NCBI GenBank assembly: GCA_030650395.1
Contig: JAUSDY010000075.1
Span: forward strand, 1 to 40,194
Direction: 5' to 3'
Source: Acidobacteriota bacterium
GTDB taxonomy: Bacteria; Acidobacteriota; Vicinamibacteria; Vicinamibacterales; UBA2999
DNA: 40,194 nucleotides
Below are positions 1-33,651 of this stretch, piece by piece. Both the position numbers and the translations under genes were made by a program. How positions within the stretch are numbered: the first letter of the stretch is position 1; every line of letters begins with the position of its first letter. A model generated the notes under the pieces. The model saw only the letters and a list, made by a program, of their open reading frames with translations, did not search any database and had not been told where the DNA came from.

Positions 1-1301
1 TTGCCCGTGCTGCCGCCGATCCGCTCGACCGGCACGTCCATCTTGTCCATCAGCGTCACGAGCAGGTTGGCCATCGACGGTTTATCGGTATACGCGAGAT
101 GGCGGCCGCCCTTCAGACGGCCGGCGCCGCCGCCCATCACGAGAATCGGCAGGTTGTCGCCCGAATGGCGGTTGCTGTTCGAAATGCCGGAGCCGTAGAG
201 GATCGTCATGTGATCCAGCAGCGAGCCGTCGCCGTCCGGCGTGGCCTTGAGCTTGGCGAGGTACTTCGCGAACAGCTCGGTATGGTAGCGGTTGATCTTC
301 GACATGCGCGCGACGAGCTCGGGAATGTCGCCGTGATGCGACAGCGGGTGGTGCGCCTCGGGCACGCCGATCTGCGGATAGGGGCGCGCGCTCTGTTCCT
401 TGCTGATCATGAAGGAGATGACCCGCGTCAGGTCCGACTGGAACGCCAGCACCTGCAGGTCGAGCATCAACTCCAGGTGATCCTCGAACAAGGCGGGGAC
501 ACCCTGCGGCTGATCCATGATCGGCAGGTCGGTGTCGCGCTGCTCCTCGGCCCGCTGAATCCGCCGCTCGATGTCGCGCACCGACTCGGTGTACTCGTTG
601 ATCTTCACTTGATCCTGCGGGCCCAGCGCGCGCTTGAGATCCAATAGTTTTTCGTTGACCGAATCCAGAATGCTCTTGTGCTGGCGCAGCCGCGCTTCCC
701 TGGCCGCGCGATCGGTGCTGCCGCTGTCGCCGAACAGCTTTTCGAATACCGCTCGCGGATTGAATTCCATCGGCAACGGCTGCGTGGCGCTGCGCCACGA
801 CAGCGTGTGCGTGTAGACGCAGCTCAGGTTGCCGGTGCAGGCGCCGGCGTTGTTCGGCGGATCCATCGCGAGCTCGAGCGAGGCGACCTGTGTCTCTTTG
901 GCAAAGTGCCGCGCCAGCAACTGATCCATCGAGACGTCGGCGATGATCTCCACTTCGTTGCGGCCGCCGCGCGCGGTTCCCGTCAGAAACGATCCCGACG
1001 CGCCCGCGTGGATGTAATTCCAGTTCGCCTTCAGCCCCGACAGCACCAGCATCTGATTGCGGTACGCCGCCAGCGGCTCGAGAATCGGCGTCATTTCAAA
1101 CGCCTCGCCCGCCGTCTTCGGCAGCCAGTACTCCATCGCCATCCCGTTGGGGACGTAGAAAGTCTGGAACCGGTGCACCGGCTTTGCGGCTGCTCGCACC
1201 AACGCCGGCGTCATCGCCTCCAAAAACGGCAGCGCCACGGTCGCGCCAAGCCCGCGCAGCACGGTGCGGCGCGGCAATGATTTCGCGGTGAGAAAGTTCA
1301 T
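1..1301 (-). CDS. DUF1552 domain protein (3' end outside window)
   Basis: The minus-strand frame is open from an ATG at 1301 to the window edge, giving about 433 residues. It begins MNFLTAKSLPRRTVLRGLGA, a twin-arginine-like export signal (RRTVLRG), and contains stretches typical of DUF1552 proteins such as FYVPNGMAMEYWLP, the central GSGISNSNRHSGDNLPIL and, near the end, KPSMANLLVTLMDKM. DUF1552 proteins are usually about 430-470 residues, so nearly all of it is present. The family is exported and common in Planctomycetes and Acidobacteria next to DUF1592 cytochromes; its reaction is unknown. The start codon overlaps the stop of the upstream DUF1592 gene by four bases (ATGA), so the two are probably translationally coupled. 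Family assignment is by sequence resemblance; function is not inferred beyond export. Confidence 0.88.
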   Translation of the reverse strand, partial: MNFLTAKSLPRRTVLRGLGATVALPFLEAMTPALVRAAAKPVHRFQTFYVPNGMAMEYWLPKTAGEAFEMTPILEPLAAYRNQMLVLSGLKANWNYIHAGASGSFLTGTARGGRNEVEIIADVSMDQLLARHFAKETQVASLELAMDPPNNAGACTGNLSCVYTHTLSWRSATQPLPMEFNPRAVFEKLFGDSGSTDRAAREARLRQHKSILDSVNEKLLDLKRALGPQDQVKINEYTESVRDIERRIQRAEEQRDTDLPIMDQPQGVPALFEDHLELMLDLQVLAFQSDLTRVISFMISKEQSARPYPQIGVPEAHHPLSHHGDIPELVARMSKINRYHTELFAKYLAKLKATPDGDGSLLDHMTILYGSGISNSNRHSGDNLPILVMGGGAGRLKGGRHLAYTDKPSMANLLVTLMDKMDVPVERIGGSTG

Positions 1302-3934
1302 AGGGATCCCCGCATCACAAACGTCGGACTGTTCACGATTCCCAGAATCAGCGACGACCATCGATAGTCTTGCGCCGCGGCGGCACGAACGATCTGCCGC
1401 ACCGCCGGCCGATCGTAGTAATCGAGCCGGCGGCCGAGCGCATAGGCCATGAGTTTTTCGGTGACCGTGGCCGGGAACTGATCGGGCCGCTGCAACAGCA
1501 GCGCGCGAAGGCCCGAGAGACCCTCGATCGGTGCACCGCCAACCGTCGTGCCCAGGGCATCGACCGGGCGGCCGGCCTCGTCCACGCTTCTCCAGCCCCC
1601 GATCGCGTCGAAATTCTCGAGCGCGAAGCCCGGCGGATCGATCACCGAGTGACAGCTGCTGCACACCGGATTGCTGCGATGCTGCGCCAGCCTCTCCCGG
1701 ATAGTCGGCGGCACGGTGCCGGGCCTGATCTCGGGCAGCGTCGTATCGACATTCGCGGGGGGCGGGGGGACGTAGACGCCGAAGATGTTGTCGAGCAGCC
1801 ACTTGCCTCGCAGCACCGGCGAGGTGCGATCCGGATACGACGTGGTGGCGAGCAGCGCGCCGTGCGCCAGCAGTCCGCCTCGTTGATCGGGATTAGGAAG
1901 CGTCACGCGCCGGAAGCGGCTGCCGTAGATCCCGGGAATCTTGTAGTGACGCGCCAGGCGCTCGTTGACGAACGTATAGTCGGCGCGCAACAGGTCAACG
2001 ACACTGCGATCTTCGCGCAACGTGCTCGCGATGAAGAGCTCGGTTTCCCGCTTGAACGCGTGCAGCAGGTTGTCGTCGAAGTCGGGATAGAAATCGGGAT
2101 GCACGACCACTTCGGCGACGCGCCGCAGGTTCAGCCACTGCGCGGAGAAGTCGTCGACCAGCGCCGATGTCGAGCGAGAATCCGCCAGCATCCGCCGCAC
2201 CTGTTGTTCCAGGATCGCGGGTTTGGAGAGCTCGCCGCGCTCGGCGAGATCCAGCAGGCGCTCGTCGGGGATGCTGCTCCAGAGAAAAAACGACAGCCGC
2301 GATGCGAGCTCGAGGTCGCTGAGCCGGCGTACCTGTGGCGCCGCGGCAGCCGCGCGGGCGGGCGGATCCTTCTGAACACGGAGCAGGAAATCCGGATCGA
2401 CCAGGATCCGCTCGAGCGCGAACTGGATTCCCGCGTCGAAGCTGCCGCCGTCGCGACGGCCACTCTCGAAAAATTTCAGGACCGTGTCGAGGTCAGCTTT
2501 CGTGACCGGCCGCCGGTACGCCAGCCGCGCCATCCGCGACAGGATTCTCGTGGCGCACGGTGGGGACGAACCTTTAGCTTGTGGGGACAAACCTTTCTTG
2601 TCCGCCGAAGCGCTTGGCGCGAAGGTGGAAGGTTTGTCCGGGTCACACACAAAGATCGCGCGGCGGCTCGGGGTGTTCGTCGCCGTGCCCTTGGCGCCGT
2701 AGGGCCCGCCGATCTGCACAGCGCCCACCGCCGCATTTCCCATGTAGATCTGATCGTTGGTGAGCACGCGGCCACGCTGCAGCGGCTGCGGAAGCCCTTC
2801 CGGTTCCCAGAGCTCGCGGACGAACGACACGCCGACGACACGAGGCCCCGCCGTGACCGGCACGCGGACCTCGAGCCCGGCATCGCCGGTCAGCTGCATG
2901 TAGGTTTCCCACTCGGGCGCGCCGGCAAATCCCGGCTCGCCGTCGCCCGCGTAACTGGCGGCGGCGGGAGTGCCCGGCGCCTTGCCACCGACGACGAATC
3001 GCTTCAGCAGCTTGCCATCGAGGCGGACATCGAGCTGTTGCGGCCAGCCCATGCCCATCAGGTAGTCCTGATACTGACGGCGCAGGCGGATCTTGATCAG
3101 GTACTCGCCGTCGACCGGAAAGGCGTAGCGCACCGCGATGCCGCCGCGCGAGCCAAACGGCAAGTCGTCGTCTTGCCGATCGTCCTGCACGACGTGCAGG
3201 GGAATCTCGAACGTCTCGAGGCGCGGGCTCGCCGGCGGCAAACCGGTCGCCAGCCGCGTCACCTGGCGCGCCGCGGACAGGTAGCGTTCGAGATGCGCCG
3301 TCGAAATCGTCAGGACGTCGGCGAAATTGTCGAAGCTGCCATCCGCCGTGTCGTCGCCGGGCAACAGCGACTTCACGTCGAAGGCCGTCGCGTCGAGCGC
3401 AAACAGGTCGCGCACCGCGTTGCTGTACTGCGTGCGATTGAGCCGATGAACGGCGTTGACTCGACCGGGATTGGGATTGGCGATCCAGGCGCGATCGATT
3501 TCAGATTCGAGGGAAGCGGCGACCGACTCAGACGTCGAGGCATCGGGCCGCGGCCGTCCGGCCGGCGGCATCGAGCCGGCGCGAAGCCTCGTGATCACAC
3601 GCTCCCACACTTGCGGATTCGCGTGCGGCGCCGTCGCGTCAATAGTGTCGAGCGTCAGTCCGGCGGTCTTGAGTCTCTGGTTGTGGCACGCAACGCAGTA
3701 GGTGTCGAGCATCGCGCGCGCGTCAGACGCCGGCGGTGCGGTTTGGGACGGTGGAACGAACGGTGTCGCGGACGCTGTAGCGCGGAACTTTCTTGTCCGC
3801 CGAAGCGCTTCGCGCGAAGGCGGAAGTTCCGCGATCTCCGCAAATTCCGCGATCTCCGCGGCCAGCGACGTCGACAACGCGCACACCACGACGGCAAACA
3901 GCGCGGCGCGTGCGTGGCGTGGACTAGTGGTCAT
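1298..3934 (-). CDS. DUF1592/DUF1588/DUF1587 family cytochrome c-like secreted protein
   Basis: A protein of 878 aa with a hydrophobic N-terminal signal (residues 8-26). A c-type haem motif CVACH lies at residues 80-84, typical of the N-terminal cytochrome-like part of this family. DUF1587 (HRLNRTQYSNAVRDLF), a carbohydrate-binding-like middle part, DUF1592 (SFFLWSSIPDERLLDLA), DUF1588 (including a second CxxCH, CSSCH, followed by SVIDPPGFALENFD) and DUF1585 (EKLMAYALGRRLDYYDR) follow in order. The family occurs with DUF1552 proteins and is thought to act in the periplasm on an unknown substrate. Two segments, about residues 34-51 and 433-450, are not family sequence: they are encoded by two copies of a 53-bp palindromic element read in different frames. 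The leader also holds a palindromic repeat between the -10 box and the ATG. Confidence 0.92.
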   Translation of the reverse strand: MTTSPRHARAALFAVVVCALSTSLAAEIAEFAEIAELPPSREALRRTRKFRATASATPFVPPSQTAPPASDARAMLDTYCVACHNQRLKTAGLTLDTIDATAPHANPQVWERVITRLRAGSMPPAGRPRPDASTSESVAASLESEIDRAWIANPNPGRVNAVHRLNRTQYSNAVRDLFALDATAFDVKSLLPGDDTADGSFDNFADVLTISTAHLERYLSAARQVTRLATGLPPASPRLETFEIPLHVVQDDRQDDDLPFGSRGGIAVRYAFPVDGEYLIKIRLRRQYQDYLMGMGWPQQLDVRLDGKLLKRFVVGGKAPGTPAAASYAGDGEPGFAGAPEWETYMQLTGDAGLEVRVPVTAGPRVVGVSFVRELWEPEGLPQPLQRGRVLTNDQIYMGNAAVGAVQIGGPYGAKGTATNTPSRRAIFVCDPDKPSTFAPSASADKKGLSPQAKGSSPPCATRILSRMARLAYRRPVTKADLDTVLKFFESGRRDGGSFDAGIQFALERILVDPDFLLRVQKDPPARAAAAAPQVRRLSDLELASRLSFFLWSSIPDERLLDLAERGELSKPAILEQQVRRMLADSRSTSALVDDFSAQWLNLRRVAEVVVHPDFYPDFDDNLLHAFKRETELFIASTLREDRSVVDLLRADYTFVNERLARHYKIPGIYGSRFRRVTLPNPDQRGGLLAHGALLATTSYPDRTSPVLRGKWLLDNIFGVYVPPPPANVDTTLPEIRPGTVPPTIRERLAQHRSNPVCSSCHSVIDPPGFALENFDAIGGWRSVDEAGRPVDALGTTVGGAPIEGLSGLRALLLQRPDQFPATVTEKLMAYALGRRLDYYDRPAVRQIVRAAAAQDYRWSSLILGIVNSPTFVMRGSL
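2561..2586. repeat. Decayed simple palindrome next to the 53-bp element
   Basis: GGGGACGAACCTTTAGCTTG resembles the left part of a simple palindrome with arms GACAAACC/GGTTTGTC and centre CTTTAG, with several changes in the right arm. It directly abuts copy 1 of the 53-bp element, whose arm has the same sequence. It looks like a decayed earlier copy. Confidence 0.5.
2586..2638. repeat. 53-bp palindromic element, copy 1, inside DUF1592 CDS
   Basis: Ten-base perfect inverted ends (GACAAACCTT / AAGGTTTGTC) flank a 33-base core starting TCTTGTCCGCCGAAGCGCTT. The core itself folds (CCGCC...GGTGG). It matches the core at 3791-3823 in 31 of 33 positions, but the arms are different. It is read through in the DUF1592 gene as the low-complexity peptide DKPSTFAPSASADKKGLSP. 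Confidence 0.9.
3781..3833. repeat. 53-bp palindromic element, copy 2, inside DUF1592 CDS
   Basis: Same length and core as the element at 2586-2638, but with ten-base inverted ends CGCGGAACTT / AAGTTCCGCG. In the gene it is read in a different frame, as ELPPSREALRRTRKF, just after the signal peptide. No stop codon is created in either frame used. Confidence 0.9.
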
Positions 3935-12878: not shown

Positions 12879-12911
12879 AGGCGGGTCTGAAGACCCGCCT
12901 CTACTTTTTTT
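12879..12911 (+). terminator. Rho-independent terminator made from a simple palindrome
   Basis: AGGCGGGTCT and AGACCCGCCT pair over ten bases with almost no loop, followed by CTAC and seven T. The hairpin is also a member of the simple-palindrome family with a CTGAAG centre (others at 14849, 17729 and 20501), showing a repeat used as a terminator for the RodZ-like gene. Confidence 0.8.
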
Positions 12912-14848: not shown

Positions 14849-14868
14849 GGCGGAACTTTAGTTCCGCC
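14849..14868. repeat. Simple palindrome GGCGGAAC-TTTA-GTTCCGCC after lpxC
   Basis: Eight-base perfect arms with a TTTA centre, two bases beyond the lpxC stop codon. The same arms occur in frame inside uvrA at 17729-17748 with a TGAA centre. Confidence 0.85.
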
Positions 14869-15967: not shown

Positions 15968-18841
<2,874 letters not shown>

Positions 18842-18893: not shown

Positions 18894-18961
18894 GCTCAAG
18901 GCAGAAGGCTCAAGGCAGAAGGCAGAACGTTTTGCCTTTGGCCTTTTGCCTTTTGCCTTCC
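18894..18961. repeat. Inverted stutter array (aaggcag/ttgcctt units)
   Basis: Units CAAGGCAGAAGG on the left are mirrored by TTTGCCTTTGGCCTTTTGCC on the right around ACGTTTT. It begins 4 bases from the stop of the APC permease gene and could act as its transcript-end hairpin. The same unit, without inversion, recurs at 32063-32122. Confidence 0.8.
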
Positions 18962-18965
18962 GCGG

Positions 18966-20472: not shown

Positions 20473-20528
20473 GGGCGCCCCTTTATGGGGCGCCGGTGGC
20501 GACAAACCTTCAGGTTTGTCGGGCGCCC
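20473..20528. repeat. Pair of simple palindromes between kinase remnant and APC permease
   Basis: First, GGCGCCCC and GGGGCGCC arms around TTTAT (20474-20494). Second, GACAAACCTTCAGGTTTGTC (20501-20520). GGGCGCCC flanks both at 20473 and 20521. The second has the same arms as the ends of the 53-bp element at 2586-2638. The composite abuts the stop codon of the kinase remnant. Confidence 0.85.
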
Positions 20529-32062: not shown

Positions 32063-32122
32063 GAAAGGCAGAAGGCAAAAGGCAGAAGGCAGAAGGCAAA
32101 AGGCAGAAGGCAAAAAGGCAGA
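32063..32122. repeat. Stutter array (aaggcag/aaggcaa) ending at the NlpC/P60 start codon
   Basis: About eight 7-base units AAGGCAG/AAGGCAA in direct order. The last unit provides AAGG five bases before the ATG at 32123. The same unit occurs in inverted form at 18894-18961. Confidence 0.85.
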
Positions 32123-32719
32123 ATGCAGACTGTGCGGGACAGTCATAGATACATAGCAACCGTGGCGGCGGCCGCCATGGCGGTCGCGCTCTCCGCGTGC
32201 GCGAGTACGGGCGCCGTGTATACGCCGCGCCCGTTTCCGATGCCGGGCGGCGGCGGTGGCGTCGCGATTCCCGCGCCGGCGCCGGCGGATCCGGCCGTGG
32301 CACCCACGACCGCCGCTCCCCCGGCGGTCGCGGTCGTGCCCGCGCCGAAGGGCGATGGCTATGCGCTGTCGAGCGCGGCGCTGTCGCTGAGGGGCGCGCC
32401 GTATCGCTTTGGCGGTACCGATCCAAATGGGTTCGATTGCAGCGGTTTGGTGAGCTACGTGTTCGGCCAGCACGGTTTGACGATGCCGCGCGAAGCGCGC
32501 GAGCAGTTCAAGGTCGGCAAGGCCGTGCCGCGCGATCGGCTCGAGCCCGGCGACCTGGTGTTCTTCAGCACGGTCGCACCCGGCGCCTCGCATGTCGGCA
32601 TCGCGATCGGCGGCGATCAATTCGTGCATGCGCCAAGCGAGCGCGGCGTGGTGCGGGTCGATCAGTTGAGCACGCAGTACTGGGCCACCCGGTTCATCGG
32701 AGCCAAGCGAGTCGACTGA
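32123..32719 (+). CDS. NlpC/P60 cell-wall hydrolase lipoprotein
   Basis: A protein of 198 aa. The lipobox LSAC places the lipid-modified Cys at residue 26. A Pro/Ala/Thr-rich linker (35-75) leads to an NlpC/P60 domain: GAPYRFGGTDPNGFDCSGLV with catalytic C106, then ASHVGIAIGGDQFVHAP with H157 and H169. Such enzymes cut the gamma-D-glutamyl-diamino acid bond in peptidoglycan stems. The start codon lies at the very end of a repeat array that also supplies the AAGG ribosome site. Its last 58 bases overlap the end of the convergent transglycosylase gene. Confidence 0.92.
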   Translation: MQTVRDSHRYIATVAAAAMAVALSACASTGAVYTPRPFPMPGGGGGVAIPAPAPADPAVAPTTAAPPAVAVVPAPKGDGYALSSAALSLRGAPYRFGGTDPNGFDCSGLVSYVFGQHGLTMPREAREQFKVGKAVPRDRLEPGDLVFFSTVAPGASHVGIAIGGDQFVHAPSERGVVRVDQLSTQYWATRFIGAKRVD

Positions 32720-33651
32720 TACTCAGGGCTTGAGGGCTTGAGGGCTTGGGGGCTTGGGGGCTTGAGGGCTCGAGGGCTCGAGGGCTTGGGCGGAATCGGG
32801 AAGGGCTGCGGGACCGGTGGCGGCACCGGAGGCGTTCCGTTCGACGGTGGTGTCACGTTCGCGGGCACCGGTGGCGTTCCATTCGACGGCCTGCCCTGAG
32901 CGAAGCCGACTCCGCTTGCGGAGCCGGCTGAGTCGAAGGGCGTCTCCTTGATATTCATCCGCTTCAAAATGATCTGCTGCCGCCGCAGCAGCCGCCTGGT
33001 CGGCTTCGCGGGACTGTGCTCGCGCGGGTTGATGATCGCACCCGCCAGCAAGGCCGCTTGGTTGGGTGACAGGCTGGCGCAAGGCTGGCCGAAGTACGCG
33101 CGCGCGGCGGCTTCGCATCCGAAGATGCCGTCGCCCCACTCGATCATGTTCAGGTAGATCTCCAGAATGCGGCGCTTGGTGAGCGCGGCCTCGAGCCGGC
33201 GCGTGATGAGCAGCTCTTTGACCTTGCGCATCGGGTTGCGCGACGGCGACAGGTAGAGGTTCTTCGCCAGCTGCTGCGTGATGGTGCTGGCGCCGCGCAG
33301 GAACTGCCCTTCCTCCCAGTTCTTCTCTAGCGCGGCCTTGACCTCGTTGAGGTCGATGCCGTCGTGATCGTAGAAGCCGGCATCCTCGGTCACGATCACC
33401 GCCCGGCGCAGGTTCGGCGAGATCTGGCCGTAAGGGACCCATCGGTGCCGGATCGCGAACTTGGCGCGGCCATCCTCGCGCGCCTCGTCGATCCGCAATT
33501 GCATGAAGGCGGTCGTGGTGGGATTGTCCCTGGCCAGCCAGCGGACGTCGGGCAGCGTCAGGTAGACATAGCCGGCGTAGACGAAGCCGGCCGCGAGCAT
33601 CGCGACGAACACTTTGAGCGTCGTCTTCGCGATCGATTTCGTCCGCGCCAC
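32662..33651 (-). CDS. mtgA: Monofunctional biosynthetic peptidoglycan transglycosylase with repeat-derived tail
   Basis: A protein of 329 aa. One N-terminal membrane anchor (residues 10-32) precedes a GT51 domain: AVIVTEDAGFYDHDGID with catalytic E89, then GASTITQQLAKNLYLSPSRN, and RRILEIYLNMIEWGDGIFGC. Normal MtgA ends about 230-240 residues in, near LLRRQQIILKRM. The extra 90 residues come from a palindromic repeat (TPFDSAGSASGVGF), a Pro/Gly/Thr-rich stretch, an octamer array (PSSPRALK-type 8-residue period) and finally 19 residues antisense to the NlpC/P60 gene. Start at GTG 33651, six bases after TATAAT, so the message is probably leaderless. It polymerises glycan strands from lipid II. 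Confidence 0.92.
   Translation of the reverse strand: MARTKSIAKTTLKVFVAMLAAGFVYAGYVYLTLPDVRWLARDNPTTTAFMQLRIDEAREDGRAKFAIRHRWVPYGQISPNLRRAVIVTEDAGFYDHDGIDLNEVKAALEKNWEEGQFLRGASTITQQLAKNLYLSPSRNPMRKVKELLITRRLEAALTKRRILEIYLNMIEWGDGIFGCEAAARAYFGQPCASLSPNQAALLAGAIINPREHSPAKPTRRLLRRQQIILKRMNIKETPFDSAGSASGVGFAQGRPSNGTPPVPANVTPPSNGTPPVPPPVPQPFPIPPKPSSPRALKPPSPQALKPSSPEYQSTRLAPMNRVAQYCVLN
32726..32789. repeat. Octamer tandem array GGGCTTGA x 8 in the mtgA 3' end
   Basis: Eight consecutive 8-base units (GGGCTTGA, GGGCTTGG or GGGCTCGA). Read on the minus strand in mtgA, three units encode one 8-residue period (PSSPRALK, PPSPQALK, PSSPEYQS). It begins six bases after the NlpC/P60 stop codon. Confidence 0.9.
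32894..32940. repeat. CCCTGAGCGA...GAGTCGAAGGG repeat in frame inside mtgA
   Basis: Same outer ends as the repeat at 26032-26083 but different stem arms, GCCGACTCCGC and GCGGAGCCGGC (10 of 11 pairing). In the protein it reads TPFDSAGSASGVGFAQG, immediately after the end of the GT51 domain. Confidence 0.85.

Follow-up and report, generated by a model that had tools for sequence, protein, structure and literature searches.

A CTTG-tailed hairpin, most likely mobile, in the loops of REP-type palindromes and of its own copies

The DNA studied here is a stretch of 40,194 nucleotides (the window), contig JAUSDY010000075.1 of an Acidobacteriota bacterium (assembly GCA_030650395.1, lineage UBA2999). 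One of its genes is read through two palindromic elements of 53 bp, which a preliminary description had placed at 2586-2638 and 3781-3833. The positions are as claimed. As had also been said, the 33-base cores differ at only two positions (31 of 33 agree), and the arms match as perfect complements inside each element while being unlike between the two. The layout was refined: the central unit runs from CTTG to GGA, the arms proper are 9 bp long with a TT loop, and a tag, GTGG or GTAG, lies just outside. Both elements are composites, in which a 33-nt unit (the core) stands between the two-base loop and the 3' arm of a tagged palindrome of the repetitive extragenic palindrome (REP) type. The features concerned are the following; R2 is a covariance model of the core.

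1298..3934, minus strand: gene of 878 aa read through both composites (family name DUF1592 taken from the preliminary description)
2581..2639, plus strand: composite 1, made of a GTGG tag, an outer REP-type hairpin (arms GACAAACCT/AGGTTTGTC, outermost pair G2585-C2639) and the core
2597..2629, plus strand: inserted 33-nt unit 1 (R2 match of 59.5 bits; limits from core-less hosts)
3777..3833, plus strand: composite 2, made of a GTAG tag, an outer hairpin (arms CGCGGAACT/AGTTCCGCG) and the core
3792..3824, plus strand: inserted 33-nt unit 2 (R2 match of 58.9 bits)

Written out in order, element 1 reads GTGG-G-GACAAACCT-TT-[CTTGTCCGCCGAAGCGCTTGGCGCGAAGGTGGA]-AGGTTTGTC-C and element 2 reads GTAG-CGCGGAACT-TT-[CTTGTCCGCCGAAGCGCTTCGCGCGAAGGCGGA]-AGTTCCGCG, the bracketed part being the core; unit 1 consists of a CTTG tail and the hairpin TCCGCC-GAA-GCGC-loop-GCGC-GAA-GGTGGA. 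The limits of the unit were set by comparing copies in different hosts. Folded as a single DNA strand, each element forms one hairpin stacked on another (-17.5 and -21.6 kcal/mol for elements 1 and 2, z -4.7 and -4.0), and for neither did any of 200 shuffles fold as well. The core pattern matched twice in the window, at the two elements, with 0.00 matches expected. An Rfam scan of window 2500-3900 gave no match at the elements, its sole sub-threshold match being at 2933-2979 (20.1 bits, gathering score 41.2).

Searches for the core in its own and in related genomes showed that the two copies of the window have many relatives. An exact two-part pattern matched 61 times in the own genome (5.41 Mb, 180 contigs) and the reversed pattern not once. 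The R2 model, built from 42 of 50 extracted copies (the eight omitted were of odd lengths, with one duplicate), found 134 matches there at E <= 0.1 among 150 candidates scored. At E <= 0.001 it found matches in 45 of 60 genomes of the order, the own one included, and none in the other fifteen; the own genome holds 107, four of its eight congeners 70, 74, 49 and 42, and the other four 9 to 18. When the phylum was sampled evenly, only 15 of 297 genomes had the exact pattern, so the distribution of the core across the phylum is patchy. More widely, at least 115 stretches of genome_contigs from many bacterial phyla carry the exact pattern; among the matches listed (80 titles) Bradyrhizobium is the most frequent, and Verrucomicrobia, Planctomycetes, Bacteroidota, Patescibacteria groups, Elusimicrobia and Acidobacteria also occur. 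There are 1-20 copies in each of 26 Bradyrhizobium genomes that were picked for having one. Seven stretches of viral contigs, two of them alike, have the core pattern, and a plasmid search with a 32-nt core and element 1 yielded no convincing copies (best E-values 0.06 and 0.3). At ten Patescibacteria-type loci the G+C content is 0.34-0.52, much lower than the element's own, as expected of a newcomer.

A length of 33 or 30 nt is found in 65 of 72 copies of the own genome and in 94 of 106 of the genome_contigs set. Both lengths are multiples of three, which would permit entry into a gene without a frameshift. In the 42 aligned copies, chosen with the pattern C[TC]TG, the tail reads CTTG, or CCTG in some, and is neither a GTAG nor a CGTC tag. 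Over 36 distinct rows the hairpin is 98.6% paired, and changes on both sides occur at three pairs, a result matched by one of 500 shuffles. The core is a repeat of its own. Moreover, the two composites lie in different frames of the minus-strand gene (offset 0 vs 2) and encode unrelated peptides; because the hairpin covaries and the frames and peptides are unrelated, the core spreads as a nucleic-acid structure and not as a protein module, which is what the preliminary description had proposed.

The outer arms are repeats as well. Core-less palindromes with the same arms had been noted at 20501-20520 and near 14849. The former has exactly the arms of element 1, the latter (14849-14868) departs from element 2 in the outermost base pair, and we found two further ones, at 12880-12899 and 17729-17748. 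With their tags, and together with a partial copy beside composite 1, they are as follows.

20496..20521, plus strand: empty target with a GTGG tag, a core-less host with arms of the first family (from arm comparison)
12880..12904, minus strand: core-less host of the second arm family (GGCGGGTC), with the GTAG tag on the minus strand
14849..14868, plus strand: core-less host of the third arm family (GCGGAAC; from arm comparison)
17729..17748, no strand assigned: core-less host of the third arm family (from arm comparison)
2560..2579, plus strand: second, incomplete copy of the outer repeat (GTGGGGACGAACCTTTAG...), bordering composite 1 on its upstream side, read in the sequence

Genome-wide, the first family has 114 tagged core-less copies. 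In the retrieved part of the genome and the window the three families have 38, 8 and 12 core-less copies, and in the retrieved own loci and the window the tag stands at most 2 bases away, on one side, in 38 of 39 core-less copies of the first family. REPs of the GTAG/CGTC kind are defined as short palindromes (20-40 bp) with a 4-nt unpaired end tag, in high copy number and sometimes in genes (Di Nocera et al. 2013, PMC3733652; this paper and the others cited by PMC number are drawn on in excerpt). With a tag beside the palindrome and a high copy number, the outer arms fit a GTAG-type REP if GTGG is allowed. We found no gene of a REP-associated tyrosine transposase (RAYT) flanked by the same REPs; the sole Y1_Tnp match in the genome is flanked by another inverted repeat. 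With the genome 98% complete, such a gene may have been missed. The partial copy GTGGGGACGAACCTTTAG stands against composite 1 in head-to-tail orientation (window 2560-2596), like partial tandems beside cores at two other loci (L010, L042; L and G numbers are our handles for loci and genomes).

The junctions between core and host could be fixed because hosts of different copies were compared. The 65 own-genome sites read TT|AG in 26 cases, GA|AG in 16 and TC|AG in 4 (the bar marks the junction), and among 106 sites of genome_contigs GA|AG was foremost, with 39. The host arms in the own genome are GACAAACC, GGCGGGTC, CGCGGAAC, GCGGGGGC and GGCGACGGC, and the host forms in Bradyrhizobium are CGTCATTGCGAG...GCAATCC, GTAGGGTGGGC...GCCCAC, GTAGCCCGGAT...ATCCGGG and CCTCTCCCGC|GCGGGAGAGG; going by the tags, we take the CGTCATTGCGAG form to be CGTC-tagged and the GTAGGGTGGGC and GTAGCCCGGAT forms to be GTAG-tagged. 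The hosts are several unrelated palindrome families, GTAG- and CGTC-type repeats of Bradyrhizobium among them. In own copies of three arm families the orientation of the core to the host tag goes with the loop, which is TT or TC when the core follows the tag (32 of 32) and AA or GA otherwise (8 of 8). Since the two sets are one and the same loops read on opposite strands, either strand of the host can be entered.

Hairpin hosts are far above chance. A stem score of at least 7 across the junction was reached by 10 of 23 unique own targets vs 3.0% of random and 3.9% of AG-matched positions, and in the other sets of unique targets by 35% of 20, 27% of 88 and 55% of 11 vs 2.7-3.7%. In the genome_contigs set 14 of 106 true pairs of flanks reached score 7, vs 1.1% after re-pairing. 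The offset was 2|0 in 11 of the 17 unique own targets with a score of at least 6. Other short hairpins were seen inside host palindromes at L339 (G083) and at L342, L343 and L350 (Bradyrhizobium), for instance a CAAAATTGC...GCAATTTTG hairpin at the same GA|AG point as the core and AGTGCGCAATTGCGCACT-type hairpins within CCGG-type palindromes. Several hairpin families may insert at hairpin tips.

That the core was inserted into a pre-existing simple palindrome, as the preliminary description supposed, is supported by the common core-less arms and by two occupied/empty pairs. One is an intergenic site of Bradyrhizobium, where G060 is occupied (CGTCATTGCGAGCGCAGCGA|core|AGCA-TCCAG) and G070 is empty (CGTCATTGCGAGCGCAGCGA|AGCAAATCCAG), G083 having an unrelated hairpin instead of the core at the same point. 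In the alignment to the query of 1,261 bases, G083 matches over the full length (80%) and G070 over bases 1-818 (81%); in most of the other species that gap contains other repeats. The other pair is in the own genome (L022), with GGCGACGGCTGA|33 nt|AGCC vs GGCGACGGCTGAAGCC; there the composite repeat stands twice, 729 bp apart and with differing flanks. Neither pair has a target duplication, insertion being precise, and in both the inserted unit is one hairpin, not two inverted REPs as in a REPIN (a doublet of REPs in inverted orientation).

The same locus bears on another explanation, in which the core is a long loop variant of a REP, composites move whole by a RAYT or a lost relative of one, and core-less copies are deletion products or sister families. 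Because a whole composite is present twice at L022, composites do at times move as units, and REP loops with complementary termini have been treated as loop types, GTAG-3 and GTAG-14 loop variants being so described (PMC3733652). Against this view, the same core is found in unrelated palindrome families of different phyla, inside itself, and opposite an empty orthologous site, and we consider it improbable.

The presence of the core inside itself was studied by dividing it into a left part L, CTTGTCCGCCGA, and a right part R, AGCGC...GGYGGA. If the unit enters itself between L and R, n layers must read L^n R^n. Runs of two or more L were collected at 29 loci (one further locus, at a contig edge, was dropped); of 60 genomes searched for two consecutive L, 8 have them. 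The numbers of L and R are equal in 20 of the 29, including 3:3 in the own genome and 5:5 in G005, and at least two R are present in 22 of the 29 vs 11 of 226 loci with a single L. Where pairing was informative, the nested arrangement was better at six of six loci and the serial one at none; at L146, for example, L1 has GCC opposite the outer GGC and L2 has ACC opposite the inner GGT. The core inserts into itself, and copies stack like Russian dolls.

On this evidence we put at about 0.72 the probability that the core is an independent mobile hairpin, mostly of 30 or 33 nt, that targets hairpin loops including its own. Several results weigh against it. With a looser core pattern, unique targets scored at least 7 in 11 of 46 own, 11 of 46 related, 24 of 90 global and 10 of 22 Bradyrhizobium cases, and below 7 in the remaining 35 of 46, 35 of 46, 66 of 90 and 12 of 22; all five viral-contig targets scored below 6. 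Many copies thus have no recognisable host hairpin, for which decay or another target rule is a possible cause. Own flanks reached score 7 in 17% of cases even when re-paired, vs 34 of 65 true pairs, a high figure because the hosts repeat. The rule of a two-base loop is clear in the own lineage, but among global targets with a score of at least 6 the offset was 2|0 in only 3 of 30. One of five measures of covariation, that of further pair types, was not above shuffles, and each occupied/empty pair taken alone could in principle be a precise loss. Finally, 9 of the 29 multi-L loci are unbalanced: inspection suggests that 4:2, 3:1, 2:3 and one 2:1 (L045) are real and that two (L133, L443) are misses of the regular expression, while three (L236, L247, L314) are ambiguous. 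The real ones would suit a tandem slippage of the two halves with no insertion at all. We hold slippage to be very improbable, given that the copy numbers of L and R are associated and that all informative loci pair inside-out.

As for the movement of the hairpin, what the data show is a core, made of a 4-nt 5' tail (CTTG) and a hairpin, that enters the loop of another hairpin with precision to the base and without target duplication, usually between a two-base loop and the following AG (NN|AG). Hosts are REP-type repeats of several unrelated families and the core itself, hence the nesting. Because the target is largely defined by structure and insertion is precise, the substrate is probably a single strand folded as a hairpin, like that of REP transposases. 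REP-type left junctions were located at 55 places in the own genome, and a gene-bearing version, with the halves far apart, was not seen among the 44 distinct ones retrieved, a larger cargo being possible. Of these 44, 42 have the right-half motif within 120 nt downstream (at twelve loci the 110 bases past the junction were inspected by eye as well), and the other two are a core with a broken end and the truncated L473, where neither a right half nor a matching outer arm was present in the following 1.5 kb.

Our guess for the enzyme, held with somewhat less than even confidence, is a trans-acting Y1 (HUH) transposase of the TnpA-REP/RAYT kind. REP transposases work on folded single strands and cut at CT by the hairpin, with the GTAG tag as the likely guide, and one also cuts CA (PMC8266576). 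A Y1 enzyme is plausible because the strand opposite CTTG reads CT|NN at the usual target, CT being the dinucleotide cut by TnpA-REP, and would be CA at the T|TG targets of Bradyrhizobium. Y1 and core counts correlate over the 60 genomes (Spearman 0.54, or 0.45 without the own genus). On the other side, those T|TG targets depart from the CT rule, and a simple guide rule derived from GTAG fails, by reasoning, to predict the junctions from CTTG. Cores are present in 7 of 15 genomes without a Y1 match, and a strong core lies at only 2 of 30 Y1 loci examined, with no convincing transposase link in the search for Y1_Tnp in the 60 genomes. The own genome's one Y1 gene is of another type, with TIRYT-like flanking repeats: the match (L086, contig C1, about 102855-103178) is flanked by a GGGGTCAG inverted repeat (beginning TGGGGTCAGGTC). 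The nearest thing to REP flanks is a pair of core-less first-family copies some 1.2-1.3 kb downstream of that gene, too far off to flank it. In the closed genome G038 there was no significant strand bias with respect to replication. Sixty 20-kb pieces of it, covering 1.2 of its 7.48 Mb, held 31 core matches, 18 vs 13 when origin and terminus were placed by GC skew, or 23 vs 15 (p 0.26) with seven further exact matches from a list complete for that genome; this is a weak negative.

The failure to find a dedicated gene, the cores in Y1-less genomes and the absence of a visible strand bias would also fit a route without transposase, namely template switching or gene conversion between hairpins during replication or repair, with the polymerase jumping at the hairpin tip. 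This we regard as unlikely, though the best of the alternatives, since hosts with no arm sequence in common still have base-exact junctions, which share only the AG and not even that at T|TG targets, and the presence of the core in distant phyla is hard to account for without a dedicated mechanism. An RNA route is improbable in our view: a hairpin RNA would reverse-splice or be ligated into the loop of another hairpin RNA and then be copied to DNA, as suggested for GC clusters of yeast mitochondria. In its favour, 17 of the 36 distinct rows have a G-U pair at one position of the stem, and the mitochondrial elements are hairpins of 42 bp with AG target nucleotides for which an RNA route is discussed (PMC4478555); the link to GC clusters is by analogy only, and insertions are found on both strands of the host repeat. 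Whether the mobile hairpin stands for an undescribed class of CTTG-tagged nano-transposons is, for us, evenly balanced. Such a class would be loop-targeting, spread over many phyla, would enter both REP tag types and itself in at least five layers, and would be moved in trans by single-strand or RNA machinery possibly serving several hairpin families.

We also looked at the gene that carries both composites. A search of 36 genomes, the own included, gave homologues in 26, and neither peptide is present in any of nine aligned DUF1592 homologues, one of which is a second gene of the own genome and one a fragment spanning both sites. Homologues carrying the peptides by descent, which the preliminary description had named as a ground for refutation, were not seen among these nine. 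Both composites are probably tolerated passengers of the gene. The second DUF1592-type gene of the own genome (L212, contig C139:54742-57192, 76% identical) has an in-frame peptide, DKPKGLSP, that a REP of the first family would encode. Other repeats were noted too: a variant of the core with CCC/GGG arms lies within GGGCTTGA-type repeat sequence at four loci elsewhere in the genome (L480, L481, L489, L494), window 32718-32797 has an 8-base array of that type without a core, and window 18898-18963 and 32065-32122 are arrays of AAGGCAGAAGGC-type units, partly inverse to each other.

For mobile DNA the core is very small, and its nested copies record the order of insertion. A target defined by structure makes the spread of REP-like palindromes directly testable, each occupied loop being a base-exact site, and empty and occupied forms are available in Bradyrhizobium, a genus with cultured strains. 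Two cautions follow: what is taken for a REP "loop variant" may be an insertion, and a short peptide found in frame within a gene can be a passenger.

Among known systems, the small dispersed repeats of cyanobacteria that Elhai et al. reportedly described in 2008 are very small mobile repeats of 21-27 nt. Rickettsia palindromic elements are about 100-150 bp long and are said to encode a conserved peptide, whereas here the composites are of 53 bp and are read in two frames as unrelated peptides. The likeness to them that the preliminary description had drawn holds for insertion inside genes that are read through (the two window copies) and otherwise does not, REP repeats being closer; the comparison draws in part on PMC10969869. 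With the yeast mitochondrial GC clusters, compared by description, the core shares the hairpin form (42 bp there), the AG target and the merging of clusters, but those are mitochondrial and the core bacterial, and the word "nested" is absent from PMC4478555. Insertion sequences are known to target REPs (Tobes and Pareja 2006, PMC1525189); unlike the core of 30-33 nt, they have transposase genes. A literature search, by the letters of the core as well, found no description of loop targeting with self-nesting, subscription papers lying mostly outside the search, so that an earlier account may exist. REP families inside palindromes have been described, with GTAG-15 dimers in A. variabilis, GTAG-23 in T. 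roseum and CGTC-1 in H. neapolitanus (Di Nocera et al. 2013, PMC3733652), and the excerpts of that work mention no unit entering many REP families and itself, no nesting and no occupied/empty pairs. The core differs from GTAG/CGTC REPs in its CTTG and in its hosts, which are many unrelated hairpins with either type of tag as well as the core itself. The putative excised form of a REPIN is a hairpin with a 5' single-stranded tail (PMC3116915), and the core resembles it as a mobile hairpin with a 5' tail; a REPIN is an inverted REP doublet, whereas the core is a single hairpin that enters loops, with no RAYT found linked. We conclude that the element is real, most likely mobile and structurally odd, and that it belongs to the REP-like world.

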